From: Methanocaldococcus infernus ME
Lineage (GTDB): Archaea; AGJL01; Methanococci; Methanococcales; Methanocaldococcaceae
Assembly: GCF_000092305.1 (NCBI RefSeq)
Contig: NC_014122.1
Span: 1,165,390 to 1,229,389, forward strand
Reading direction: 5' to 3'
Length of the DNA: 64,000 bases
Shown: positions 12,768 through 24,269 of the stretch, piece by piece
Layout of the letters: every line of letters starts with the position of its first letter
Numbering within the stretch: position 1 is the stretch's first letter
Notes under the pieces: generated by a model
What the model was told of the DNA's origin: nothing
The model's input: only the letters and a program-made list of their open reading frames with translations
Databases searched by the model: none
Translations under genes and position numbers: made by a program

Positions 12768-12808
12768 ATATTTAATGAGTGATGGTAGTGGTAAATGGTA
12801 GTGGTAAT

Positions 12809-13192
12809 ATGAAATCTTTTATTTTTTATTTTTTTAATAATTGGCGTTTATTATTAAATTTATGGGTAATATTTATTGCTAGTTTCTTAGTTACCATGCT
12901 ATTAAAACCTAAAATAAATATTAACTTTAAAAAATCTGTAACTGTATCTATTATTTGTGTAATATATGCATTGCTAAGTATATTTGCTTATTATGTTATT
13001 GGAAATGTAGGTCTAAAAATATTGTCTAATGTGTTTATTTCAACAATATTCTTTGGGATTGGAATAATATTATACATTAAATCTGAAAAATTAAATAAAA
13101 TTACTAAATACGCTGCAATTGTGTTATTACTATTGTCTATAATGGATTTAATGAAATTATTCATAAAGATTTTAATTAAATTAATTCTGTGA
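12809..13192 (+). CDS. Cassette-specific membrane protein (immunity candidate)
   Basis: 127 aa, about four membrane segments with a basic loop (KSEKLNKITK). It follows the dead precursor and precedes DUF95 copy 1 by four bases, the middle position of every cassette. It shows no clear sequence identity to the other middle genes, as expected for a protein matched to one core peptide. An in-frame ATG at 12779 would add ten residues; the repeat-like GGTAGTGGTAAT upstream makes the start uncertain. Confidence 0.65.
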   Translation: MKSFIFYFFNNWRLLLNLWVIFIASFLVTMLLKPKININFKKSVTVSIICVIYALLSIFAYYVIGNVGLKILSNVFISTIFFGIGIILYIKSEKLNKITKYAAIVLLLLSIMDLMKLFIKILIKLIL

Positions 13193-13196
13193 AACC

Positions 13197-13733
13197 ATGA
13201 AAAAACTACCGCTAATATTAACAATATCTATTTTCATAATTGGTTTTATTTCAGGAGTTATATCAATAAATAACTTATCAAAAATTAACAATAATAGCTT
13301 ACCTAACTTTAAACCTAAAATACAATTTAATTTTATTTCAATATTAACAAACAACTTAAAAGTTATTCTTCTAATGTTAGCAGGAGCTATAACCTTCGGT
13401 TTATCCACTTTTATAAATCTACTATTCAACGGATTTAACGTAGGCGTTTTAATCGGCTCTACTTTCCTAACTAATGAACCATTAAAATTAATAACTGCCT
13501 TAATCCTTCCACACGGAATATTCGAAATCCCAGCTATGTTAATAGCAGCAATAGCGGGCTTTAAAATCCCTTATGAAATAACCCTATATTTATTAGATAA
13601 AAAAGAAAAACCAATAACAGAGGAAGATATAAAAGAATTCTTAAAATTAGCTTTAATTTCAATAATTCTAATTATTATAGCAGCTTTCGTAGAGGTTTAT
13701 ATCACACCAGAGGTAGCTAAGTTACTTATGTAA
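13197..13733 (+). CDS. SpoIIM/DUF95 membrane protein, array copy 1
   Basis: 178 aa, about five membrane segments. Hallmarks of the SpoIIM/DUF95 family are FGLSTFINLLFNGFNVG and PHGIFEIPAMLIAAIAGFKI. DUF95 proteins recur in circular bacteriocin clusters, where they take part in maturation, export or self-protection. The last 70 codons and the 3' untranslated sequence are nearly identical to the other copies, while the N-terminal half differs from copies 2 and 3 and equals copy 4. It carries haplotype I (TATATTTATTAGATAAAAAA). Starts at GAAACCATG, a wording repeated at other DUF95 starts. Confidence 0.85.
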   Translation: MKKLPLILTISIFIIGFISGVISINNLSKINNNSLPNFKPKIQFNFISILTNNLKVILLMLAGAITFGLSTFINLLFNGFNVGVLIGSTFLTNEPLKLITALILPHGIFEIPAMLIAAIAGFKIPYEITLYLLDKKEKPITEEDIKEFLKLALISIILIIIAAFVEVYITPEVAKLLM

Positions 13734-13805: not shown

Positions 13806-13830
13806 CGATTTAAATCGTTATATATATATA
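13806..13830 (+). promoter_or_regulatory. Cassette promoter: palindrome CGATTTAAATCG plus TATA run
   Basis: A perfect 12-base palindrome (13806-13817) abuts T(TA)6 (13818-13830), a strong archaeal TATA box. Start of transcription is expected about 13845-13855. The palindrome sits where transcription factor B and regulators bind. It drives precursor A. Confidence 0.75.
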
Positions 13831-13891
13831 GGTTTTGCATTTATTTTGTTTATGAAAGTGTGTTAAAATACTTTAAAAAATTAAAAAATAG

Positions 13892-13926
13892 TTGGCGATG
13901 ATGCCTCAGTATAGAGGCAGAGCCAA
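13892..13926 (+). promoter_or_regulatory. Kink-turn in the 5' leader of precursor A
   Basis: C-helix UUGGC/GCCAA (13892-13896 with 13922-13926), three-base bulge GAU, tandem GA opposite GA, NC-helix UGCCUC/GAGGCA and loop AGUAUA. This is a textbook simple kink-turn, the binding site of archaeal L7Ae. Here the upstream ORF is shortened to four codons. Confidence 0.75.
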
Positions 13927-13961
13927 TAAGAGTAGTAGAACCACTATGTAAGGGTGGCAAA

Positions 13962-14225
13962 ATGAATATATCCAAAAGCAACATACTTAAAGGTTTCGCT
14001 GCTGTGGCTATGCTTTGCATGATAGGAGCTTTAGTAGCTGAGCCAGTGGCTTTGGGAGATATTGGTCAAGTATATATGACATGGAATATCGATAAAGAGT
14101 ATGGTCAGAGACTATTTAATGCTGGAACAATATTAACTACTGCTGGAGGTTTAGCAATAGGTACTGGAATTGGAGCAGAAGTGGGATTAATTATTGGGGC
14201 CACAGGAGTGATTACCATGGCGTAA
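13962..14225 (+). CDS. Precursor peptide A (leader + hydrophobic core)
   Basis: 87 aa. Residues 1-32 are the array leader (MNISKSNILKGFAAVAMLC, then MIGALVAEPVALG), which looks like a secretory signal peptide. The core of about 55 residues begins DIGQVYMTWN and ends in a Gly/Ala/Ile-rich stretch (AIGTGIGAEVGLIIGATG) and Ala. The layout resembles circular bacteriocin precursors such as enterocin AS-48: a hydrophobic leader, and a helical core of roughly 55-75 residues with no need for cysteines. The leader junction is inferred from where identity between copies ends. Confidence 0.72.
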   Translation: MNISKSNILKGFAAVAMLCMIGALVAEPVALGDIGQVYMTWNIDKEYGQRLFNAGTILTTAGGLAIGTGIGAEVGLIIGATGVITMA

Positions 14226-14295
14226 TTATATTTTAACATTTTTTATTTTATTTTTATTGCACTATTATCATTTATAGCTTCTATTGAGGGATATA

Positions 14296-14490
14296 ATGGG
14301 AACCATGTTTATATTTCCAAAAAAGCATTATTTATATTTTATAATTATATCATATATTGCTTTAGTGTCTCTAATGATGTATTCAATCTATAGTGGAAAT
14401 TTTAGCATAAAGCAACTACCTGCCTTTTTACTCACTACACTTTTTTTAATAATTATAGTACGTTATCTACAAAAAACCATGGAAAAATGA
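14296..14490 (+). CDS. Small two-segment membrane protein (partner of precursor A)
   Basis: 64 aa from ATG 14296, which has GAGGG upstream; a frame from 14284 would add four residues. Two hydrophobic segments and a basic C-terminus (RYLQKTMEK). Circular bacteriocin immunity proteins are small, basic and membrane-spanning, so this is the immunity candidate for precursor A. No identity to other middle genes is evident. Confidence 0.62.
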   Translation: MGTMFIFPKKHYLYFIIISYIALVSLMMYSIYSGNFSIKQLPAFLLTTLFLIIIVRYLQKTMEK

Positions 14491-14806: not shown

Positions 14807-15040
14807 GTGGCTATGCTTTGCATGATAGGAGCTGTGTTTGCTGAATCTACAGTGTTAAAAGCATTTGCAGCTGGAGCGGCAGCTGGTTTGGAATTAGCTG
14901 AAGGATCTCCAATGGGCGTCTTAACAGCTGCAGAGGGTATTGGTGTTACTGGTCTTTATTGGGGATTGGCACTTTGTGTAGTGGGTACAGCATGTTTGCC
15001 AGTTACTGCAACTCTATTAGCTATAGGCGCTGCAGCTTAA
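14807..15040 (+). CDS. Precursor peptide B with frameshifted leader
   Basis: 77 aa in the core frame from GTG 14807 (or ATG 14813). The usual leader start is present at ATG 14766, but one base is missing in the fourth codon region, so that frame stops at 14825 after 19 codons. The core frame keeps only the hydrophobic end of the leader (MLCMIGAVFAES). The core is Ala/Gly-rich (FAAGAAAGLELAEG) and ends GAAA. It may be a silenced precursor, or one made from the internal start by re-initiation at the overlap. The later cassette genes are intact. Confidence 0.6.
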   Translation: MAMLCMIGAVFAESTVLKAFAAGAAAGLELAEGSPMGVLTAAEGIGVTGLYWGLALCVVGTACLPVTATLLAIGAAA

Positions 15041-15069
15041 TAAAACTATTCACTTTTTAGGTGAATGCA

Positions 15070-15492
15070 ATGGAAGCAACAAATTATATTAAAAATTTGA
15101 AAGATCAATCAATAATTACCATATTATTTTGTAGCCTAATTTATATTTTTAGTTTGGTACTTCTGTCTATTTCTTTTAATTTTATAGTTGCAGTTAATAC
15201 TTTAAACATTATATTTCTATTAGGGGTTGTACTAGGTTATTATGTGGTTAAAAATATTTTAAAATGGGACCTAAAAGAAAGAGAATTTTTAGGGTATTTG
15301 TATTTACCTATGTTATTTTTGCTTCCAATTCTCGCAGTAAGTTCCACTGAATTTTTAAAATTGATTTTTAACATTTCATTATCAAATGAAAAATCTTTAA
15401 TAGTTATGATTTGTTCAGGGATTTGTTTTATTGCAAGTTATTTTATTGGTTTTTGTCTTTATATATTAAAAAATCAAATGAGGAAATTATGA
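15070..15492 (+). CDS. Cassette-specific membrane protein (partner of precursor B)
   Basis: 140 aa with about four membrane segments. ATG 15070 has AGGTGA five bases upstream, which I prefer over GTG 15061. The stop overlaps the DUF95 start (ATGA), so both are translated together. No family recognised. By position it is the immunity or maturation partner of precursor B. Confidence 0.66.
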   Translation: MEATNYIKNLKDQSIITILFCSLIYIFSLVLLSISFNFIVAVNTLNIIFLLGVVLGYYVVKNILKWDLKEREFLGYLYLPMLFLLPILAVSSTEFLKLIFNISLSNEKSLIVMICSGICFIASYFIGFCLYILKNQMRKL

Positions 15493-16013
15493 AATTGTAT
15501 GAAGTCCTTCCCATAGTTTTATTTTTGATATTTTTTGTTTTTGGATACTTTACAAAAATCCCTACATATGATAATACTCCAAACATTGACATAAACACAA
15601 TATTTCCGAACACTTTTTTAGGAATATTATCAAATAACTTAAAAGTTATATTAACAAATTTATCTGGAAGTGTCCTATTTGGATTATCTACTTTTGTCAA
15701 TATGCTCTATAATGGATATATATTGGGTGTTCAAGCCAAGATATTTACTGTTACTTACGGAGTATATTTTGTTTTAATTACTACCATACCCCATTGCATT
15801 TTTGAAATCCCAGCTATGTTAATAGCAGCAATAGCGGGCTTTAAAATCCCTTATGAAATAACCCTCTATCTCTTAGATAGAAAAGAAAAACCAATAACGG
15901 AAGAAGATATAAAAGAATTCTTAAAATTAGCTTTAATTTCAATAATTCTAATTATTATAGCAGCTTTCGTAGAGGTTTATATCACACCAGAGGTAGCTAA
16001 GTTACTTATGTAA
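15489..16013 (+). CDS. SpoIIM/DUF95 membrane protein, array copy 2
   Basis: 174 aa from ATG 15489 (ATGA overlap, GAGG seven bases upstream). The N-terminal half is unlike other copies (TKIPTYDNTPNIDINTIFP, and IPHCIFEIPAM with Cys for Gly). From the shared EIPAMLIAAIAGFKI onward it is nearly identical. It carries haplotype II (CTCTATCTCTTAGATAG), shared with copy 4. The mosaic of a private first half and shared last third points to gene conversion. Confidence 0.84.
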   Translation: MKLYEVLPIVLFLIFFVFGYFTKIPTYDNTPNIDINTIFPNTFLGILSNNLKVILTNLSGSVLFGLSTFVNMLYNGYILGVQAKIFTVTYGVYFVLITTIPHCIFEIPAMLIAAIAGFKIPYEITLYLLDRKEKPITEEDIKEFLKLALISIILIIIAAFVEVYITPEVAKLLM

Positions 16014-16085: not shown

Positions 16086-16110
16086 CGATTTAAATCGTTA
16101 TATATATATA
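16086..16110 (+). promoter_or_regulatory. Cassette promoter: palindrome CGATTTAAATCG plus T(TA)6
   Basis: Palindrome at 16086-16097, TATA run at 16098-16110. The first ATG downstream (16132) lies about 28 bases from the middle of the TATA run, so transcription should begin at or just before it. Confidence 0.75.
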
Positions 16111-16131
16111 GGTTTTGCATTTATTTTGTTT

Positions 16132-16215
16132 ATGAAAAATGTGGAAAACAATAGGAACATTAGAAAGTGTGTTAAAATAAAACACTTTAAAAAATTAAAA
16201 AATAGTTGGCGATGA
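16132..16215 (+). CDS. Upstream ORF of 27 codons ending inside the kink-turn
   Basis: ATG 16132 to TGA 16213-16215. The product is 27 residues, rich in Lys, Asn and Arg (MKNVENNRNIRKCV, then KIKHFKKLKNSWR). The ATG is at the predicted transcription start, so it would be read as a leaderless message. Its stop codon is part of the GAUGA bulge strand of the kink-turn. It is identical in two other cassettes. A regulatory role is inferred; a chance ORF is possible because the block is duplicated. Confidence 0.4.
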   Translation: MKNVENNRNIRKCVKIKHFKKLKNSWR

Positions 16216-16241
16216 TGCCTCAGTAATAGAGGCAGAGCCAA
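16206..16241 (+). promoter_or_regulatory. Kink-turn in the 5' leader of precursor C
   Basis: UUGGC (16206) pairs with GCCAA (16237). Bulge GAU, GA opposite GA, stem UGCCUC/GAGGCA, loop AGUAAUA. A second hairpin, CCAC (16256-16259) with GTGG (16269-16272), covers the GGTGG ribosome site of precursor C. Confidence 0.78.
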
Positions 16242-16276
16242 TAAGAGTAGTAGAACCACTATGTAAGGGTGGCAAA

Positions 16277-16573
16277 ATGAATATATTCAAAAGCAACATA
16301 CTTAAAGGTTTCGCTGCTGTGGCTATGCTTTGCATGATAGGAGCTTTAGTAGCTGAGCCAGTGGCTTTAGGGAATTGTGGAAAATATTTGGCAGAAAATG
16401 CGGATAGTGATTTGGTCAAGGCACTTGGTTATGCTTCTCAAGGTGTTGGTGTTGCATCATTAAACGCTGCATATACAGTTGCAGCAGCATCATGGGAACT
16501 TTATTTAGTATGCCCTGAAGCTGCAGTTCCAGTTTTATTAGTTGGTGGTTCAGGAGCCATTCTTTATGCATAA
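16277..16573 (+). CDS. Precursor peptide C (leader + core)
   Basis: 98 aa. The leader is the same as in D and E through AEPVALG. The core of about 66 residues starts NCGKYLAENADSDLVKALGY and ends with GGSGAILYA, and includes one Cys near each of its start and middle (NCGK, LVCPE). It has alternating Ala/Val helical stretches, as expected of a membrane-active helical bundle. The kink-turn leader and promoter precede it. Function as a bacteriocin is inferred from layout. Confidence 0.72.
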   Translation: MNIFKSNILKGFAAVAMLCMIGALVAEPVALGNCGKYLAENADSDLVKALGYASQGVGVASLNAAYTVAAASWELYLVCPEAAVPVLLVGGSGAILYA

Positions 16574-16641
16574 TACAATAACTTTTTCTTTTTAAATTAT
16601 TTTTTACAAATAATGATATATGTAGATTGAATGGTGAAAAT

Positions 16642-16968
16642 ATGAATATTATAATTACAATAATTATAATTTCATTTTCAATATTATTAAGTGTTAAGTT
16701 ATTTTATTCCCTAATGAAAAGTCTAAAAAAAGAGGAAATAAAATTAAAAAATTTTGAGGTCATATACAAATTTGTAATTCCTATTATCTTTGCACTTGTA
16801 GGGGTGGAATATAGCAATAGTATATTTATAAGTACTGGTATTAACTCAAAATCGTTTACTTTGTTTATTTTAGATACGATAGTAGTTATATTAATACTAA
16901 TGATATACCATGTAAGTTTAGCTATACTCTCAAGAATTATACAATCAAAATTAAGTTCAAGTAAGTAA
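16642..16968 (+). CDS. Cassette-specific membrane protein (partner of precursor C)
   Basis: 108 aa, about three to four membrane segments with a Lys/Glu loop (KSLKKEEIKLKNFE). ATG 16642 has GGTGA four bases upstream; a TTG frame from 16627 is less likely. It lies between precursor C and DUF95 copy 3. No family recognised; immunity candidate. Confidence 0.65.
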   Translation: MNIIITIIIISFSILLSVKLFYSLMKSLKKEEIKLKNFEVIYKFVIPIIFALVGVEYSNSIFISTGINSKSFTLFILDTIVVILILMIYHVSLAILSRIIQSKLSSSK

Positions 16969-16990: not shown

Positions 16991-17536
16991 ATGCTCAAGT
17001 ATACAAACAATATATTAATTATCTTAGCTGTAATTTTAATCTATATTATTGGGTTTATTAATGGGTATTACACAAACAATAATGAAATAAAGACACTAAA
17101 TAATAATAAATCAAAGTTAAGATTTAATTCTTCATTACCAAAACTTTTATTAAACAACTTAATAGCAGATTTTTTAATGCTGGCAGGTTCTATAACCTTC
17201 GGTTTATCCACTTTTATAAATTTAATATTCAATGGTTTTAATCTTGGGTTATTAGTTTCTAATGCTTATAACAGCGGAATGCCCACAAAATTAATTTTAG
17301 CTTTAATCCTCCCACACGGAATATTTGAAATCCCAGCTATGTTAATAGCAGCAATAGCGGGCTTTAAAATCCCTTATGAAATAACCCTATATTTATTAGA
17401 TAAAAAAGAAAAACCAATAACAGAGGAAGATATAAAAGAATTCTTAAAATTAGCTTTAATTTCAATAATTCTAATTATTATAGCAGCTTTCGTAGAGGTT
17501 TATATCACACCAGAGGTAGCTAAGTTACTTATGTAA
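16991..17536 (+). CDS. SpoIIM/DUF95 membrane protein, array copy 3
   Basis: 181 aa. Private N-terminal part (INGYYTNNNEIKTLNNNKSK), then the shared SITFGLSTFINL and PHGIFEIPAMLIAAIAGFKI. The last third and 3' spacer match copy 1 (haplotype I) rather than its neighbours 2 and 4. Twenty-two bases separate it from the upstream membrane protein. Confidence 0.85.
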   Translation: MLKYTNNILIILAVILIYIIGFINGYYTNNNEIKTLNNNKSKLRFNSSLPKLLLNNLIADFLMLAGSITFGLSTFINLIFNGFNLGLLVSNAYNSGMPTKLILALILPHGIFEIPAMLIAAIAGFKIPYEITLYLLDKKEKPITEEDIKEFLKLALISIILIIIAAFVEVYITPEVAKLLM

Positions 17537-17801: not shown

Positions 17802-18119
17802 ATGAATATATTCAAAAGCAACATACTTAAAGGTTTCGCTGCTGTGGCTATGCTTTGCATGATAGGAGCTTTAGTAGCTGAGCCAGTGGCTTTGGGAGAT
17901 ATATCAGCTTACTATTTGTATAAACACTCAAAAAATGGAGATTACTATAATGCTGGTCAGGATGCAGTAGTATTATATGGGGCTGGTGAAACAATAGCAA
18001 AAGGGGTAGGTTATTTAGCATTAGTTTCCGAAACTGGTGCTGAAGCAGGTTTATTGGCAGCAGGTGTAGCAACTGGTGGAGTAGCTTTAATTGCTATTGG
18101 AATTGGTGTAGCGGCTTAA
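17802..18119 (+). CDS. Precursor peptide D (leader + core)
   Basis: 105 aa. Leader of 32 residues, then a core of about 73 residues starting DISAYYLYKHSKNGDYYNAG and ending in a strongly Ala/Gly/Val-rich helix (GLLAAGVATGGVALIAIG) and Ala. The core start resembles the broken precursor at 12548 (DIGAAYY), so these two are probably relatives. No cysteine in the core. Similar in size to enterocin AS-48 (70 residues). Confidence 0.73.
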   Translation: MNIFKSNILKGFAAVAMLCMIGALVAEPVALGDISAYYLYKHSKNGDYYNAGQDAVVLYGAGETIAKGVGYLALVSETGAEAGLLAAGVATGGVALIAIGIGVAA

Positions 18120-18181
18120 TCTTACAATTTATATAAATTTTAATTTTTTAAATATATATTTTTCCTTTATTGGGGGAAACT

Positions 18182-18361
18182 ATGAACAACAATAAAAAAA
18201 CATATCGTAAATTATATTGGCATATTTGGTATATACTATTTGGAATCCTCCTTATATTAATGTTTAATTTAGAACCTCCGTATAAAACATGGATTATAGG
18301 ATTATTGGTCATCATGGCTTTATCAAGGATAATAATATTATGGATTGATATCGATAAATAA
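18182..18361 (+). CDS. Small two-segment membrane protein (partner of precursor D)
   Basis: 59 aa from ATG 18182, preceded by a GGGGG run that could act as ribosome site. Basic N-terminus (NNNKKTYRK) and two hydrophobic segments. Its last codons (WIDIDK) overlap the start of DUF95 copy 4, at what looks like a recombination joint. Immunity candidate for precursor D. Confidence 0.62.
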   Translation: MNNNKKTYRKLYWHIWYILFGILLILMFNLEPPYKTWIIGLLVIMALSRIIILWIDIDK

Positions 18362-18821
18362 CTTATCAAAAATTAACAATAATAGCTTACCTAACTTTAA
18401 ACCTAAAATACAATTTAATTTTATTTCAATATTAACAAACAACTTAAAAGTTATTCTTCTAATGTTAGCAGGAGCTATAACCTTCGGTTTATCCACTTTT
18501 ATAAATCTACTATTCAACGGATTTAACGTAGGCGTTTTAATCGGCTCTACTTTCCTAACTAATGAACCATTAAAATTAATAACTGCCTTAATCCTTCCAC
18601 ACGGAATATTCGAAATCCCAGCTATGTTAATAGCAGCAATAGCGGGCTTTAAAATCCCTTATGAAATAACCCTCTATCTCTTAGATAGAAAAGAAAAACC
18701 AATAACGGAAGAAGATATAAAAGAATTCTTAAAATTAGCTTTAATTTCAATAATATTAATCATTATAGCAGCTTTCGTAGAGGTTTATATCACACCAGAG
18801 GTAGCTAAGTTACTTATGTAA
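18345..18821 (+). CDS. SpoIIM/DUF95 membrane protein, array copy 4, N-terminally truncated
   Basis: 158 aa from TTG 18345. From SINNLSKINNNSLPNFKPK it equals copy 1 at the DNA level, but the first membrane segment (about 20 residues) is missing and the preceding gene runs into it. The last third carries haplotype II, like copy 2, so the gene is a mosaic. The family motifs remain. Whether it is translated (TTG start inside another gene, 17-base overlap) or works without the first segment is unclear. Confidence 0.75.
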   Translation: MISINNLSKINNNSLPNFKPKIQFNFISILTNNLKVILLMLAGAITFGLSTFINLLFNGFNVGVLIGSTFLTNEPLKLITALILPHGIFEIPAMLIAAIAGFKIPYEITLYLLDRKEKPITEEDIKEFLKLALISIILIIIAAFVEVYITPEVAKLLM

Positions 18822-18893: not shown

Positions 18894-18922
18894 CGATTTA
18901 AATCGTTATATATATATATATA
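18894..18922 (+). promoter_or_regulatory. Cassette promoter: palindrome CGATTTAAATCG plus T(TA)8
   Basis: Palindrome at 18894-18905, TATA run at 18906-18922. Drives precursor E. Confidence 0.75.
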
Positions 18923-18943
18923 GGTTTTGCATTTATTTTGTTT

Positions 18944-19027
18944 ATGAAAAATGTGGAAAACAATAGGAACATTAGAAAGTGTGTTAAAATAAAACACTTT
19001 AAAAAATTAAAAAATAGTTGGCGATGA
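18944..19027 (+). CDS. Upstream ORF of 27 codons ending inside the kink-turn
   Basis: Third intact copy of the upstream ORF, ATG 18944 to TGA 19025-19027, as at 16132 and 17657. Confidence 0.4.
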   Translation: MKNVENNRNIRKCVKIKHFKKLKNSWR

Positions 19028-19053
19028 TGCCTCAGTAATAGAGGCAGAGCCAA
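19018..19053 (+). promoter_or_regulatory. Kink-turn in the 5' leader of precursor E
   Basis: Identical fold and sequence to that at 16206. The CCAC/GTGG hairpin over the ribosome site follows before ATG 19089. Confidence 0.78.
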
Positions 19054-19088
19054 TAAGAGTAGTAGAACCACTATGTAAGGGTGGCAAA

Positions 19089-19409
19089 ATGAATATATTC
19101 AAAAGCAACATACTTAAAGGTTTCGCTGCTGTGGCTATGCTTTGCATGATAGGAGCTTTAGTAGCTGAGCCAGTGGCTTTGGGAGATATTTCATGGGCAG
19201 CAACATGGGTTGTAAATAATATTATGCATAATTCTGTAAGTGGAGATGCACAATATGATACTATTGTAACTTCTACTGGAGCATTAGCAGCTTACGGATT
19301 TAAAAATGGGATTAGATTTGCAGTAAGGGGAGTAGTAATTGGAGCCTCTGCGGGTCCTGAAGGCGCTATAGCAGGTGCTGTTTTAGGATTTGCTGCTGGA
19401 GTTGCATAA
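19089..19409 (+). CDS. Precursor peptide E (leader + core)
   Basis: 106 aa. Standard 32-residue leader. The core of about 74 residues starts DISWAATWVVNNIMHNSVSG and ends GAVLGFAAGVA. It carries two Arg in the middle (GIRFAVRGVVIG), giving a cationic patch as in many circular bacteriocins. It shares only the residues next to the leader with the other cores. Inferred secreted peptide. Confidence 0.72.
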   Translation: MNIFKSNILKGFAAVAMLCMIGALVAEPVALGDISWAATWVVNNIMHNSVSGDAQYDTIVTSTGALAAYGFKNGIRFAVRGVVIGASAGPEGAIAGAVLGFAAGVA

Positions 19410-19460: not shown

Positions 19461-19841
19461 ATGTATGAAAGTAGTAATTATTCGGGAAATATTTTGTTGT
19501 GGATTTTATTTAATGGATTTATGGTAGTGACATTGTCAACATTATTTGAGTATCTAATGTTCTATGCACACGATATTTTAGTAAGATCCATATTTCAAAT
19601 TTTTGGAATATTGGTTATTTCTACATTTCTTGAGTATATATTCCAATATAAAATATTAAAAAATAAATGTCAAATATCAAAATCAAAAATTATTTACAAT
19701 TCAGTATTTATAGCACTTTTATTTTACATGATAATCATTAATACAGATTTTAGCACTTGGATTTTTATCCTGCCTGTCATTAGTATGATTGTACTTTTTA
19801 TTAGATATAACGATTATTTATCTTTTAGAAGGAGATTTTAA
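19461..19841 (+). CDS. Cassette-specific membrane protein (partner of precursor E)
   Basis: 126 aa, about four membrane segments, basic loop (QYKILKNKCQISKSK) and basic C-terminus (SFRRRF). Strong GGGTGG ribosome site before ATG 19461. It is followed by a DUF95 remnant, so this cassette relies on another DUF95. Immunity candidate. Confidence 0.65.
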   Translation: MYESSNYSGNILLWILFNGFMVVTLSTLFEYLMFYAHDILVRSIFQIFGILVISTFLEYIFQYKILKNKCQISKSKIIYNSVFIALLFYMIIINTDFSTWIFILPVISMIVLFIRYNDYLSFRRRF

Positions 19842-19860: not shown

Positions 19861-19974
19861 ATGAAACTACCATCAATATTAACAATTCTAATCTTCCCAA
19901 TAATTCTAATCATCATAGCAGCATTTGTAGAGGTTTATATCACACCAAAAATAGCGAATTATTTATTAACATAA
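19861..19974 (+). pseudogene. DUF95 remnant with internal deletion (N- and C-terminal ends fused)
   Basis: Opens MKLPSILTILIFP after GTGAAACC and continues in frame as IILIIIAAFVEVYITPKIAN, the DUF95 C-terminal helix, before stopping after 37 codons. The middle, including PHGIFEIPA, is lost. It marks the downstream edge of the array. A 37-residue single-span product could still be made. Confidence 0.75.
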
Positions 19975-20042
19975 CACTTAAATATAATTAAATAAACATA
20001 ATACTAAATACTAATTAAATATCAAAAAATAAAGGGGAGAAA

Positions 20043-20699
20043 ATGAACATAAAAGAACTAATCCTAAATCCAAACAACTTCTTTAAAAATTTAGCAAATA
20101 GGGAGGTATCTCTTAAAACACCGTTCTTGATAGTTCTTACATTTTCGGTGTTTATGTCTATTTATACATATTACACAACATCAACAATGTTTAAAATATT
20201 TCCATCTGATATGCAAGGTATTATGTCAATGATGATGATAATTTCCGCAACATCTGCTTTAGTAGGTGGATTTGTATCATGGATAATAATAGCTGGGATC
20301 ATGCATATAATTTCAATGGTTTTCAAAGGAGAAGGTTCCTTTAAAAGAACTTTAGCATTTGTAGGTTATGGATTTTTACCAAATATTATAGGGCTATTGA
20401 TATCCATTCCTATTACATATTATTTTCTTTCAAATGCTCATATTCCAACTTTAACTATGGAACAACTACAAAATCCAGAGGTTTTAAAGCAGGTAATAAA
20501 ATCTATGTTTCCAAAATCAATGTTATATACTAATCTTTTAATTGGCTTAGCTGTTACTTTATGGAATCTATATATTTGGACCTATGCTATTAAGTATGCA
20601 AGAAACTTAGAGTTAAGGAAAGCTTTTATAGTGGCATTAATCCCAACATTATTATTTGGCTTGTATCAGCTCTACAAAATAATTAAGCTTATTATTTAA
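20043..20699 (+). CDS. Yip1-family multi-pass membrane protein
   Basis: 218 aa, about five membrane segments after an N-terminal NPNNFFKNLANREVSLKTP, the usual opening of prokaryotic Yip1-domain proteins. GEGSFKRTLAFVGYGFLPNI is also typical. RBS AAGGGGAG. It is the first gene of a unit with the exported CARDB-like protein and the ABC transporter, a combination common in archaea. It lies 68 bases after the array. Role unknown; probably an accessory part of the transport system. Confidence 0.82.
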   Translation: MNIKELILNPNNFFKNLANREVSLKTPFLIVLTFSVFMSIYTYYTTSTMFKIFPSDMQGIMSMMMIISATSALVGGFVSWIIIAGIMHIISMVFKGEGSFKRTLAFVGYGFLPNIIGLLISIPITYYFLSNAHIPTLTMEQLQNPEVLKQVIKSMFPKSMLYTNLLIGLAVTLWNLYIWTYAIKYARNLELRKAFIVALIPTLLFGLYQLYKIIKLII

Positions 20700-20707
20700 G
20701 GGATAAA

Positions 20708-22180
20708 ATGAAGAGAATATTTACATATTTTATTCTTTTGATATTATTAAACTTAGTCTATGCAACAATAAATTTTGTAAATTTTGACTATAAAAATGAG
20801 TACTTAGAGCCAGGAAAAACTTATGATGTTTGGGTTGTTGTTATCCCTGACAAAGATATTAATAATACTATTTTTAGTATCTCTCCTTATGGATTAAGTA
20901 AAAAATATATAGAAATAATTAAGGGAGAGGATTATGAAGGCTCTCTTGTAGAGGGTGAGAAAGGAGTAGGGCATTTTATTATTAAAGTTAAAGATGATGC
21001 TCCACCTTACAACTATAAGTTTATTGTTTATTGTAACTACACCATTAATAAAAGATACTATTCAGAAAATCAGGTCTTTGAGATTCCAGTTAGGGGAAAA
21101 CCCTTAATTTCTATTGATAGTCCTACAACATTAAAGGAAGGTTACAATGAGATTTTTTTAGAAGTTACTAACAAAGGAACAGGATCTGCTCAGAATATAA
21201 AAATAGTATTTAATGGAGAAAAGAATATTCAAATTTTGGGAGATAATACTTACATAATAGAGAACTTAAATGCTGGTATAACTAAGTTAATAAAATTAAA
21301 GTTATATGCCAATGGAGACCTTGGAACTATAAATTATAAAGTCTTGTATGAAAGTCCTTACAACCTATTAATTTTAAAGAGTAAGACAGAATCTATAGAT
21401 TCTGAGACACTAAATTATGACAATGAAAAAATATTTAGTGAAAGTGGAACTTTAACTTTTAAGATAATCCCAAGTGACTTAATTTTTATCTCATTGAAAA
21501 ATCTAACGTATCCTGTAGGAGAAATATGTAACTTAACACTAATTTTAAAAAATAACTATAAAGATTCGTATTTCACTGTTATTATTGACAAATATTATGT
21601 AGGAGATAATAAGAAAGAGTTGTTTATAAAGAGAGGAGAAGTTAAAGAAGTTCCTTTTAAGATAAAAGTGGATAAGACAGGCTTAGTAAATATCCCAATA
21701 AAAATTTATTTTGATAAAAATGAGATCAATAAGAATTTAACTATAAACATAGTTGGAAAGCCTGACTTAGTTTTATCAGGTGTTAATGTTGAAGGCTTTA
21801 AACATTTGGTCATTACTGGAGATTTATGTAACATAGGAACTGGAATAGCTAAAAGTGTTTTAATAAGCTTAGTAAAAACAGAAAATATAGAGCCAGAGAA
21901 GCCTTATGAAAACTATTTTGTAGGAACTTTAAATCCAGATGATTATGGAAGTTTTGAATTACACTGTCAAATTAATGGAACTGTAAATGAGATACCAATT
22001 AAAATAATGTATAGGGATGAGAATAATAACTTAATAACTATATATAAGTCAATAAAAATTAATAAAACCATTTCTCCAAAAAGTGAGAGTAAAGATAATT
22101 ATTTAGTCATTGGGGTTGGCATTCTCTTCTTTATAGGAGTAATCTACTTAATTTATAAAGGGATTATAAAGAAATTTTGA
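20708..22180 (+). CDS. Exported CARDB-like protein with C-terminal membrane anchor
   Basis: 490 aa. Signal peptide (residues 1-20, KRIFTYFILLILLNLVYA), several beta-rich immunoglobulin/CARDB-like repeats (for example LKEGYNEIFLEVTNKGTGSA and the later VGEICNLTLILKNNYKDS), and a C-terminal membrane helix with a Lys tail. The fold class is that of archaeal COG1361-type proteins that accompany MacB-like ABC transporters. It probably stands outside the membrane as a substrate-binding or periplasm-spanning part. Eight bases follow the Yip1 gene; ten precede the ATPase. Confidence 0.82.
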   Translation: MKRIFTYFILLILLNLVYATINFVNFDYKNEYLEPGKTYDVWVVVIPDKDINNTIFSISPYGLSKKYIEIIKGEDYEGSLVEGEKGVGHFIIKVKDDAPPYNYKFIVYCNYTINKRYYSENQVFEIPVRGKPLISIDSPTTLKEGYNEIFLEVTNKGTGSAQNIKIVFNGEKNIQILGDNTYIIENLNAGITKLIKLKLYANGDLGTINYKVLYESPYNLLILKSKTESIDSETLNYDNEKIFSESGTLTFKIIPSDLIFISLKNLTYPVGEICNLTLILKNNYKDSYFTVIIDKYYVGDNKKELFIKRGEVKEVPFKIKVDKTGLVNIPIKIYFDKNEINKNLTINIVGKPDLVLSGVNVEGFKHLVITGDLCNIGTGIAKSVLISLVKTENIEPEKPYENYFVGTLNPDDYGSFELHCQINGTVNEIPIKIMYRDENNNLITIYKSIKINKTISPKSESKDNYLVIGVGILFFIGVIYLIYKGIIKKF

Positions 22181-22190
22181 GGTTTAACTT

Positions 22191-22880
22191 ATGATTGAAC
22201 TAAAAAATGTAACCAAAGTTTATAAGATGGGTAATGAGCTAATCTATGCTTTAAAAAACATAAATTTAAAAATAAAAGAGGGTGAATTTGTTTCAATTAT
22301 GGGACCCTCAGGAAGTGGTAAGTCTACTCTATTAAATATTATTGGTTGTTTAGACAGGCCAACAGAGGGAGAGGTTTACATTGACAAAATAAAAACAAAT
22401 GATTTAGATGATGATGAATTAACAAAAATTAGAAGGGATAAGATTGGCTTTGTCTTCCAACAATTTAATTTAATCCCTCTACTAACAGCTTTAGAGAATG
22501 TTGAGCTTCCACTAATTTTTAAATATAAGAATTCTATGAGTGAAGCTGAGAGGAAAAGAAGAGCTTTAGAATGCTTAAAGATGGCTGAGTTGGATGAGAA
22601 ATTTGCTAACCACAAGCCAAATCAGTTGAGTGGAGGACAACAGCAGAGAGTGGCTATAGCAAGGGCTATAGTAAATGATCCAAAAATTATTTTAGCTGAT
22701 GAACCAACTGGAGCCTTAGATAGTAAAACAGGAAGGAAAATTATGGAATTATTAAAGAAATTAAATGGCTATGGAAAAACTATTGTGGTTGTTACTCATG
22801 ATATAAATGTATCTAAATATGGAGATAGAATAATTTATATAAAGGATGGCTCAATTGAAAGGGAAGAGAATGTATCTTGA
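22191..22880 (+). CDS. ABC transporter ATPase, MacB/LolD type (MJ0796-like)
   Basis: 229 aa. Walker A GPSGSGKST (38-46), signature LSGGQ (146-150), Walker B with catalytic E171, and switch H203. It is recognisably the same protein type as Methanocaldococcus jannaschii MJ0796, whose nucleotide-sandwich dimer is a standard structural model. It energises the permease next to it. MacB-type systems use their ATPase for mechanical work on extracytoplasmic substrates. In circular bacteriocin clusters a second transporter of this type (FGH) gives extra self-protection. Confidence 0.95.
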   Translation: MIELKNVTKVYKMGNELIYALKNINLKIKEGEFVSIMGPSGSGKSTLLNIIGCLDRPTEGEVYIDKIKTNDLDDDELTKIRRDKIGFVFQQFNLIPLLTALENVELPLIFKYKNSMSEAERKRRALECLKMAELDEKFANHKPNQLSGGQQQRVAIARAIVNDPKIILADEPTGALDSKTGRKIMELLKKLNGYGKTIVVVTHDINVSKYGDRIIYIKDGSIEREENVS

Positions 22881-23961
22881 AATGGCAAAGAGAAACTTAA
22901 TGAGGCATAAGCTAAGAACCATCTTAGCTTTATTGGGAATTATAGTAGGTGTAGCCACTATAACAACCTTAGGAATCTTAGGGGAGAGTGCTAAAGTAGG
23001 GATAGAGAAAAATTTTGGAGATGTGGCAAACTATATCTTAATCTTTCCCAACTGGATGGCTGGAGTTAAGTATTTTACAGATAAAGACTTACTGAAACTT
23101 AGAGGAATTGGTGGGAAAGTAATCCCAATAAAGGAAACTTATGACTCTATCTATATTGTTGGAAAAAATAAACATGTAGAAGTAAGAATTTTTGGAATTA
23201 AAAAAGATGAAATCAAATACTTAAATTTGGATATAAAATTATCTAACACTCAAACAGCTGTAGACTCCTTCTTTTCAGAGCTACATGAGGTTAAAAAAGG
23301 GGACACTATAAAGATAAAAAATATCTCTTTTAGGATCTCTTCTCTATACAATTCAACCTTTATAATTCCAAGGAACTCTATAATTTTGACTGAAAGATCT
23401 TTCAACAGATTTTATAAGCTTAATTACACAAGAATTGCTATTTATGTTCCTAACATGAATAAAATTAAGGAGGTTCAAAATGAGATAGATAAAAGATTAA
23501 ATAAAAAGAAAAAGAGGGCTATAGTTATCTCATTAGGTTCAATATTGAATAAGATATCTAATGCCATAAACACTATAACCTACATCTTAATGGCTATTGG
23601 AGGAATCTCTCTATTGGTTGCTGGGCTTGGAATAGGGAATGTTATGCTCATGAATGTTATAGAGAGGACTAAAGAAATTGGAATTATGAGAAGTGTAGGG
23701 GCTTCAAAGAAAGATATCATGCTTCTATTTTTATATGAAGCCTTAATCTTAGGAATTATTGGTTCAGCCATTGGCTCAGCTATAGGTTTAGGGATAAGTT
23801 ATATAATAGTTAATTTACTACATACTTCACTTCCAGCAAGTTCAATACTTTACATAATATTAGGAGTTTTGTTTGGAGTAGGCACTGCTTTAATCTCTGC
23901 CTTATATCCTGCTTATAAGGCAGCTAACTTAGATCCAATAAAGGCACTGAGGGGAGAGTAA
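22870..23961 (+). CDS. ABC transporter permease, MacB/FtsX type
   Basis: 363 aa from ATG 22870. One N-terminal membrane segment (HKLRTILALLGIIVGVATI), an extracytoplasmic domain of about 200 residues, then three membrane segments with the family wording ERTKEIGIMRSVGASKKDI and PAYKAANLDPIKALRGE. That is the four-segment MacB layout. A start at 22846 would overlap the ATPase by 35 bases, against 11 for 22870. Works with the ATPase upstream and probably with the CARDB and Yip1 proteins. Confidence 0.92.
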   Translation: MYLEMAKRNLMRHKLRTILALLGIIVGVATITTLGILGESAKVGIEKNFGDVANYILIFPNWMAGVKYFTDKDLLKLRGIGGKVIPIKETYDSIYIVGKNKHVEVRIFGIKKDEIKYLNLDIKLSNTQTAVDSFFSELHEVKKGDTIKIKNISFRISSLYNSTFIIPRNSIILTERSFNRFYKLNYTRIAIYVPNMNKIKEVQNEIDKRLNKKKKRAIVISLGSILNKISNAINTITYILMAIGGISLLVAGLGIGNVMLMNVIERTKEIGIMRSVGASKKDIMLLFLYEALILGIIGSAIGSAIGLGISYIIVNLLHTSLPASSILYIILGVLFGVGTALISALYPAYKAANLDPIKALRGE

Positions 23962-24269
23962 TGGAGAAAAATATTAAAGTGGTGTCAGCTGAGTTATTAA
24001 AAGGGGCTAAGATGTTGTCTAAACACTGTAAAAATTGTGGATTTCCATTATTTGAGAAGAATGGTGTGATATATTGCCCAATTTGCAGTAAAAATAAAGA
24101 AAAAGAGGAGAAGAAATTTACAAGTGTCCCTGAGAATGGATATAAAAAGATTATTGACAGTAAAATAAACTATTTATTTAACAAGTTAAAGAATGAAGAT
24201 GATGTCCATAACATAAGAGAGATCTGTGAAACCATCTTAATATTGATGAAGCTAAAAAGTATGAGGTGA
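23961..24269 (+). CDS. Zinc-ribbon protein, UPF0148 type
   Basis: 102 aa. An N-terminal helix AELLKGAKMLSKH precedes a zinc ribbon with CKNC and CPIC (about residues 23-41), followed by a Lys/Glu linker and a C-terminal helix. This order fits the archaeal UPF0148 family, related to eukaryotic autoantigen p27. Function unknown. Starts at the last base of the permease stop codon. Confidence 0.8.
   Translation: MEKNIKVVSAELLKGAKMLSKHCKNCGFPLFEKNGVIYCPICSKNKEKEEKKFTSVPENGYKKIIDSKINYLFNKLKNEDDVHNIREICETILILMKLKSMR

Follow-up and report, generated by a model that had tools for sequence, protein, structure and literature searches.

A conserved four-gene locus containing the ABC ATPase MJ0796 or its orthologues behind peptide/SpoIIM cassettes in Methanococci, and its likeness to bacterial peptide efflux systems

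AS-48EFGH is the name of one accessory transporter of the type encoded in circular bacteriocin gene clusters. Yip1 family proteins are described as common in clusters for head-to-tail cyclised bacteriocins, particularly where three accessory transporter genes are present (PMC8659200). For example, the cerecyclin cluster has a Yip1 protein together with cycEFG (PMC8534725), and bawcin BawDEFG consists of an HlyD-type adaptor, an ATPase, a permease and a Yip1 protein (PMC10707071). Mr10EFGH is described as involved in enterocin self-immunity, and for the shared EntDD14 transporter both immunity and export are reported (PMC10598978). In Bacillus, YknWXYZ is reported to act in efflux of the SDP toxin (PMC4887032). 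The locus analyzed here is an archaeal set of comparable genes in a 64,000-nt stretch of the Methanocaldococcus infernus ME genome (NC_014122.1, positions 1,165,390–1,229,389; the whole stretch is termed the window). Four genes, encoding a Yip1 family membrane protein, a CARDB-like ectoprotein, an ABC ATPase and a permease, were confirmed at window positions 20043–23961 on the forward strand, which is also the strand of an array of peptide/SpoIIM cassettes directly upstream.

The archaeal set matches the bacterial systems in three parts and differs in one. YknWXYZ has a Yip1 protein, an extracytoplasmic partner, an ATPase and a MacB-type permease, as does the archaeal set, and the circular and leaderless bacteriocin accessory transporters (Mr10EFGH, cerecyclin Yip1 with cycEFG, BawDEFG) share this component list. 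The features of MacB-type (type VII) transporters are present, i.e. PF02687, PF12704 and PF00005 are all matched over cut-off and the ATPase is separate. The Yip1 protein matches PF04893 but misses the cut-off of the NCBIfam family YknW_fam (1e-7, 31.5 bits, cut-off 110). The part that differs is the extracytoplasmic one: YknX is a membrane fusion protein, whereas an anchored ectoprotein of CARDB/Ig-like type appears to occupy this slot in the archaeal set, judging by analogy with the bacterial clusters. No transporter protein of the window matches HlyD (Pfam) at E up to 1. The substrate of YknWXYZ is a membrane-active peptide, and the same is proposed for the archaeal set. We hold it just on the probable side that the four components form one dedicated pump, which would draw the hydrophobic peptides of the adjacent cassettes out of the membrane of the producer and so protect it.

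The ectoprotein alone scores 15.5 bits against CARDB, below the Pfam cut-off of 22.7; CARDB is matched by 16 of 18 members of its family at E ≤0.01 (best 5e-9). The AlphaFold2 (AF2) model (mean pLDDT 85, pTM 0.48) shows a helix at each end, the C-terminal one at positions 464–487, and between them strands with a single helix of four residues. This suggests a membrane-anchored protein of the beta-sandwich (CARDB/Ig-like) type, with the C-terminal helix as a probable transmembrane segment. The top Foldseek matches are ciliary central-apparatus, complement and alpha-2-macroglobulin proteins and PrgB Ig-like domains, every one with a TM-score on the query below 0.3; a membrane fusion protein is absent among the 50 matches listed. 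The start of the permease is probably the ATG at 22870 rather than 22846, because homologous open reading frames (ORFs) in loci L069, L072, L073 and L077 begin with MYFELAKRN, which aligns with MYLEMAKRN in the window (L numbers denote loci and G numbers genomes).

A working model of the pump can be outlined. The ATPase would act as a dimer to drive the permease. Following the example of MacB and LolCDE, the permease may engage its substrate on the outside of the membrane and would need no channel through it. In a cell with an S-layer but without an outer membrane, the Ig-like ectoprotein would be the outer partner and stand in for the membrane fusion protein; Yip1 may help assembly. The pump's main function would be self-protection, by extracting the peptides from the membrane of the producing cell, and the cell's own peptide might be released as a side effect. 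Formation of a complex, the nature of the substrate, the direction of transport and the role in immunity are what we infer from the gene neighbourhood and these parallels.

In the window, SpoIIM (DUF95) lies near the precursor genes as it does in circular bacteriocin clusters; the cerecyclin cluster and a Priestia plasmid likewise have SpoIIM and peptide genes alongside. The window differs from these clusters in that the adaptor is replaced, the precursors have a long hydrophobic leader, and the first ATPase, which comes after SpoIIM in the cerecyclin and Staphylococcus aureus clusters, is lacking: there is no ORF of more than 200 residues between 12210 and 20043, so there is no ABC ATPase within the array. 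None of the five precursors (starting at 13962, 14807, 16277, 17802 and 19089) matches a circular-bacteriocin NCBIfam profile at E up to 1, and the two searched against Pfam (16277 and 19089) gave no match at E up to 1. Among 20 comparisons with four bacterial circular bacteriocins, the best two had 24 and 45 of 1000 shuffles scoring as high, which is not significant after 20 tries. By the tests made, with no peptide profile match and no first ATPase, the array does not appear to be of the circular-bacteriocin kind, and assignment of the peptides to known circular bacteriocins was rejected. Their identification by fold was dropped, as the AF2 model (pLDDT 54) is unusable.

The lack of an ABC ATPase in the array, and specifically of the first ATPase found after SpoIIM in the two bacterial clusters, is what would be expected if the four-gene set were the primary exporter that secretes the cassette peptides, with the MJ0796-type ATPase powering release and SpoIIM and the small membrane protein serving in processing or docking. 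EntDD14, where one shared transporter is described as providing immunity as well as export (PMC10598978), is a precedent. The window ATPase, however, has 52%–55% identity to the ATPase of the second transporter of the bacterial clusters and 26%–29% to that of the first, although the former level is ordinary for the MacB class. Moreover, four genomes, albeit of a single clade, retain the transporter with no cassettes, and it has a candidate promoter of its own (see below). We consider a primary exporter possible but rather unlikely. The earlier note on this DNA had proposed that the transporter exports the peptides or expels them from the membrane, like the second transporter of AS-48-type clusters; the likeness of layout stands, and of the two roles expulsion is held the more probable.

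MJ0796 has long been a model ABC ATPase, and to our knowledge no job has been assigned to it; it has been used in papers as a structural model. The ATPase of the window displays its best Protein Data Bank matches with 1F3O, 1L2T and 3TIF, which are structures of MJ0796 (E = 1e-126). It has 83%–86% identity to other Methanocaldococcus copies and 84% to MJ0796, whereas the next-closest ABC ATPase in the same genome is 47% identical; against two solved MacB-type ATPases it scores 247 and 219 bits. It is thus the orthologue of MJ0796, both as the closest match and by having the same gene neighbours. In G003 (M. jannaschii) the ATPase is identical to 1F3O at 235/235 residues, and therefore MJ0796 itself lies in such a locus. 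The order there is: one peptide gene, one complete SpoIIM, a Yip1 of 141 residues, CARDB, a 170-residue ORF, MJ0796, a 137-residue ORF and the permease. The position in the operon is like that in the window, from which the M. jannaschii operon differs by the truncated Yip1 and the two extra ORFs flanking MJ0796. The Yip1 gene (L069:9983-10500) has been cut to 141 residues through an internal deletion with a frame change; the peptide, SpoIIM, CARDB, ATPase and permease are full length. The statement in the earlier note that a close homologue of MJ0796 sits with a permease, Yip1 and a CARDB protein is thus borne out, and MJ0796 itself stands behind a cassette.

The locus was followed through 36 genomes of the class Methanococci, of which 14 belong to the genus. 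A search at phylum level covered these 36 as well, and a named genome scan yielded 8 loci, every one from Methanococci. The transporter is found in 19 of these and is missing from 17. Same-strand cassette material lies directly upstream in 14 of the 19, four have no cassettes anywhere, and in one (G010) the contig ends 44 bases upstream of Yip1, so the presence of a cassette could not be judged. Counted gene by gene, Yip1 orthologues are present in 20/36 genomes, CARDB in 19/36 (at least 48% identity), the permease in 18/36 (at least 51% identity) with a partial one in G010, array-type SpoIIM in 15/36 (cut at ~80 bits) and peptide precursors in 16/36, i.e. the 14 with a transporter plus G008 and G033. 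In these last two, SpoIIM is either split or missing altogether. G033 has one peptide and permease fragments with stops. G021 has a diverged Yip1 and a CARDB fragment, with no such ATPase or permease. Twelve of the 14 genomes with both parts hold at least one SpoIIM frame of more than 170 residues; SpoIIM is interrupted in the drafts G011 and G034.

In all 14 genomes with both parts, which represent three genera, SpoIIM material is found 48–145 bases upstream of Yip1 on the same strand, and chance adjacency was rejected on this account. Twelve of these distances were measured together; that of the window is 68, and that of G011 is about 60 to a SpoIIM fragment (1219 bases if counted to the next longer SpoIIM frame). 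The 68 bases previously given as the distance from the last cassette hold as a gap (19974 to 20043), but that cassette is incomplete: its SpoIIM, ending at 19974, is reduced to 37 residues. The MJ0796-type transporter behind cassettes is a general arrangement, with cassette material directly upstream in 14 of 18 testable transporter genomes. It is not, as had been supposed possible, always next to cassettes: G025, G028, G030 and G032 have all four genes at full length and no matches to peptide or array SpoIIM. In G030 the transporter is directly downstream of a CRISPR array (L085:7751-10930; 30-base repeat, 38 copies), and in G025, G028 and G032 it stands behind a similar non-array gene (by eye). 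Among the 36 genomes, cassettes with an intact SpoIIM frame were never found without transporter genes. The earlier note had taken numerous cassette-less transporters, or cassettes elsewhere in the genome, as grounds for giving up the association; the former are confined to four genomes of one clade, and cassette pieces elsewhere are few (G035 near 1120277–1121257, G034 contig 49, G023 near 441203, and a second complete locus in G023).

Because the transporter is kept without cassettes in four genomes, and no cassette with an unbroken SpoIIM lacks it, self-protection is favoured over export. Retention without cassettes, in three cases behind a similar non-array gene, could also be read as a sign of a general envelope transporter (MacB/LolCDE-like, for lipids, lipoproteins or xenobiotics) whose locus became a landing site for cassettes by chance; the ATPase and permease families are broad enough for this. 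However, the transporter is missing from 17 of the 36 genomes, and G001, G002 and G012 lack cassettes and transporter alike. The recurrence of the set on a Methanosarcinales plasmid and the parallel divergence at a second locus in G023, both described below, also speak against a general transporter, and we regard this explanation as improbable.

The number of independent cases behind these counts is small. In a tree of the four concatenated proteins (made without G021 and with some genes lacking for G003, G010, G023 and G034), the four cassette-free transporters form one clade with support 100/100, and for this reason the genome counts are near to a single contrast and are not independent evidence. 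With 35 genomes, a Fisher test gives p = 1e-5 (5e-4 if G008 and G033 are counted as cassette-only), a value inflated by shared ancestry. In a PurD tree of 29 of the 36 genomes (left out were G008, with no usable frame, G011 and G031, with no match, and G014, G016, G018 and G020), the three genomes lacking both parts lie among genomes that have both; there are only 3 supported independent pairs (5 on all branches), none in the opposite direction. Separate alignments were also made, of Yip1 (without G003, G005, G034 and all diverged second copies), CARDB (without G034 and the broken copy of G023) and 26 chosen peptide precursors (short or broken ones left out).

The spacer between SpoIIM and Yip1 has a conserved sequence. 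In 15 aligned spacers, 14 cassette-linked and one from the cassette-free G030, TTTAAATA (13 spacers) or CTTAAATA (2 spacers) is found directly after the SpoIIM stop, and the core TTAAATA is invariant in 15/15; several of these spacers are near copies of one another. The 8-mer by itself is common in the AT-rich window (22 occurrences against an expectation of 17.7; as many in 15 of 100 shuffles), so the argument rests on its kept position in related sequences. G021 has such a box farther upstream. This conservation suggests a TATA box and thus a candidate promoter belonging to the transporter. The transporter is accordingly unlikely to depend on transcripts running on from the last cassette, and would be expressed independently of any single one. 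Plain read-through as the sole promoter arrangement was rejected on this basis. Co-transcription across 19974–20043, which the earlier note had put forward as a check, becomes doubtful: TTAAATA is in all 14 cassette-linked spacers and in G030, though not in G025, G028 or G032.

A search of 72,556 plasmid records (E up to 1 for Yip1) yielded two Yip1 matches. The one in Haloarcula has no such gene context. The other, on pMETHO01 of Methanomethylovorans hollandica, is a further case of the four-part set beside SpoIIM, on a Methanosarcinales plasmid: Yip1 (32% identity), an IS1 transposase, a CARDB-like protein (35% over 155 residues; profile E = 4e-33), an ATPase (60%) and a permease (38%); upstream, in divergent orientation, lie SpoIIM (37%) and two hydrophobic ORFs of 66 residues that are almost identical. 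Compared with the 18 full-length orthologous permeases, the pMETHO01 permease gains 230–272 bits; none of the other permeases listed exceeds 179, and the two from the second locus of G023 reach 175 and 159. SpoIIM gave nine plasmid matches, of which four contexts were examined (among the other five is Nonomuraea, the third bacterial one). Both Bacillota contexts are annotated circular-bacteriocin clusters: Priestia megaterium with Yip1, four peptides, SpoIIM, ATPase and adaptor, and S. aureus with peptide, SpoIIM, ATPase, adaptor, ATPase and permease. The Halomicrococcus match is not in such a cluster.

G023 provides a comparison of two loci within one genome. The CARDB protein and ATPase of the second locus are 100% identical to those of the first, whereas Yip1 is 44% and the permease 41% identical, and SpoIIM and the peptide core have also diverged. 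The two loci (L080/L081) share a 2.3-kb stretch over CARDB and the ATPase with 99.4% DNA identity, a pattern resembling gene conversion or the recent duplication of a patch. Since Yip1 and the permease differ along with SpoIIM and the peptide while the other two proteins are the same, specificity seems to reside in Yip1 and the permease, as if they follow the peptide.

Other variants of the locus were seen. An extra ORF of 134–309 residues, probably membrane-spanning, is present between the ATPase and permease genes of L069, L072, L073, L077, L079, L084, L087 and L088 and is absent in the window; three scanned (L069, L079, L088) gave no Pfam match. It is possible that these ORFs encode cognate immunity proteins. 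L076, L077, L079, L087 and L088 have a second, diverged Yip1 gene (24%–28% identical), either before the first Yip1 or between CARDB and the ATPase. A gene of about 335 residues is next to or inside three loci (L069:14779-15783, L072:1965-2975, L088:13181-14191), and the one copy scanned (L069) has TPR repeats.

Several observations weigh against a dedicated self-protection pump. The cassette-free survivors are one clade, so the asymmetry may rest on a single event, and with 3 supported pairs a sign test on the PurD tree cannot reach significance. G008 may be a counter-example, with complete peptide ORFs, a SpoIIM broken in two by a single frame change and, in the DNA after the array, no transporter; this draft is 85% complete, and the frame change could be an assembly error or a piece may be missing. 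(A small gene pair of 70 and 81 residues, HicB/HicA-like by eye only, lies inside this transporter-less array at L089:10068-10515.) Transporter genes are interrupted beside cassettes in G003 (Yip1), G034 (Yip1 and CARDB) and one of the two G023 loci (CARDB). The M. jannaschii Yip1 is without its last third, and so either Yip1 is dispensable there or the system is failing. In G028 the transporter genes lie in two places, with the permease about 230 kb from Yip1, CARDB and the ATPase. No box like that of the spacer was found in the 160 bases read upstream of Yip1 in the cassette-free G025, G028 and G032. The peptides are without significant similarity to circular bacteriocins and have a poor AF2 model, and their activity is putative. 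In addition, arCOG01996 is also reported from Archaeoglobi and Pyrococci, and the section of PMC4158269 that does so speaks of the ABC transporter for Methanococcales only.

This neighbourhood and the suggestion of peptide transport are already in print (2014–2015). Cassette loci of arCOG01996 with a SalXY-type ABC transporter were described in Methanococcales, and transport of antimicrobial peptides was suggested (PMC4158269); the section of PMC5898192 on these genes adds Yip1 and proposes membrane remodelling. In that proposal, which reasons from SpoIIM and yeast Yip1p, SpoIIM and Yip1 would form a membrane-remodelling or vesicle-forming complex to which the ABC transporter is an accessory (PMC5898192). 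Yip1 beside an adaptor, an ATPase and a permease is, however, a recurrent layout of bacteriocin and SDP efflux systems, one that the section does not discuss, and the cassettes carry leader-bearing, hypervariable peptides; we find a remodelling complex very improbable. The sections concerned in the two papers do not have the link to MJ0796 and its structures, the comparison with YknWXYZ and AS-48, the CARDB protein, the cassette-free survivors or the Methanomethylovorans plasmid. Within the limits of the literature searches made, the assignment to MJ0796, the comparison of all four parts, the survivors without cassettes and the plasmid case were not found in any publication.

The features of the window are listed in Table 1. 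Cassettes have the order peptide, membrane protein, SpoIIM (PF01944). Three peptide genes are preceded by a repeated leader of roughly 150–190 bases with a TATATATA stretch and a hairpin-like segment (13820–13960, 16100–16276 and 18910–19088, by eye), and by this inspection the cassettes look separately promoted. Alike core peptides stand behind different leaders in different genomes (window 13962–14225 and L074:8101-8364; L071:10611-10919 and L080:8944-9243, by eye); cores seem to be swapped between cassettes and genera, with the leader staying local. Downstream, a 102-residue ORF (23961–24269), whose start resembles a zinc ribbon by eye, shares one base with the stop of the permease gene and may be co-transcribed with it. 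In a PADLOC scan the ATPase and permease had only generic ATPase and LolE-like matches, and Yip1, CARDB, SpoIIM and the peptide had none; a known anti-phage system was rejected on this basis.

Table 1. Features of the cassette array, spacer and four-gene transporter in the window
Feature	Positions	Strand	Basis
Small membrane protein preceding first SpoIIM (role by position)	12779–13192	+	similar ORFs in G005, G011, G013
SpoIIM, first complete one of the array	13197–13733	+	PF01944 match at G000:1178613
Peptide precursor 1	13962–14225	+	
Small membrane protein, cassette 1 (role by position)	14284–14490	+	similar ORF in G009
Peptide precursor 2, start region damaged	14807–15040	+	
Small membrane protein, cassette 2 (role by position)	15061–15492	+	
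SpoIIM, cassette 2, start re-set from 15411	15489–16013	+	family match G000:1180902-1181378
Peptide precursor 3	16277–16573	+	
Small membrane protein, cassette 3 (role by position)	16627–16968	+	
SpoIIM, cassette 3	16991–17536	+	PF01944 3e-30
Peptide precursor 4	17802–18119	+	
Small membrane protein, cassette 4 (role by position)	18170–18361	+	
SpoIIM, cassette 4, N-terminus missing	18345–18821	+	PF01944 2e-32
Peptide precursor 5, leader conserved, core variable	19089–19409	+	
Small membrane protein, cassette 5 (role by position)	19461–19841	+	similar ORFs in G011, G008
SpoIIM remnant, 37 residues, last cassette	19861–19974	+	read from sequence; C-terminal match G000:1185205-1185354
Conserved TATA-like box CTTAAATATAA, candidate transporter promoter	19977–19987	+	just after SpoIIM stop
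Yip1 family membrane protein, corresponding to YknW/Mr10E by slot	20043–20699	+	PF04893 2e-30, 106 bits
CARDB-like ectoprotein, 490 residues	20708–22180	+	CARDB family membership, AF2 model
ABC ATPase, MJ0796 orthologue	22191–22880	+	PF00005; best PDB matches 1F3O/1L2T/3TIF
MacB/FtsX-type permease	22870–23961	+	PF02687 FtsX 3e-23, PF12704 MacB_PCD 6e-11

Taken to its full extent, the proposal is that MJ0796 works in an archaeal four-component peptide-immunity pump, a counterpart of YknWXYZ and of the circular-bacteriocin accessory transporters, in which an anchored Ig-like rod replaces the membrane fusion protein and which cassette-free genomes keep against the peptides of their neighbours. 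In this complete form the proposal is tentative and has less than an even chance of being correct. If true, it would provide a physiological job and a testable class of substrates for the ATPase behind 1F3O, 1L2T and 3TIF. In the CARDB ectoprotein, MacB-type pumps of cells lacking an outer membrane would have a novel type of outer partner. Gene knock-outs are possible in the genus, and peptide warfare and immunity among archaea would thus become directly testable.

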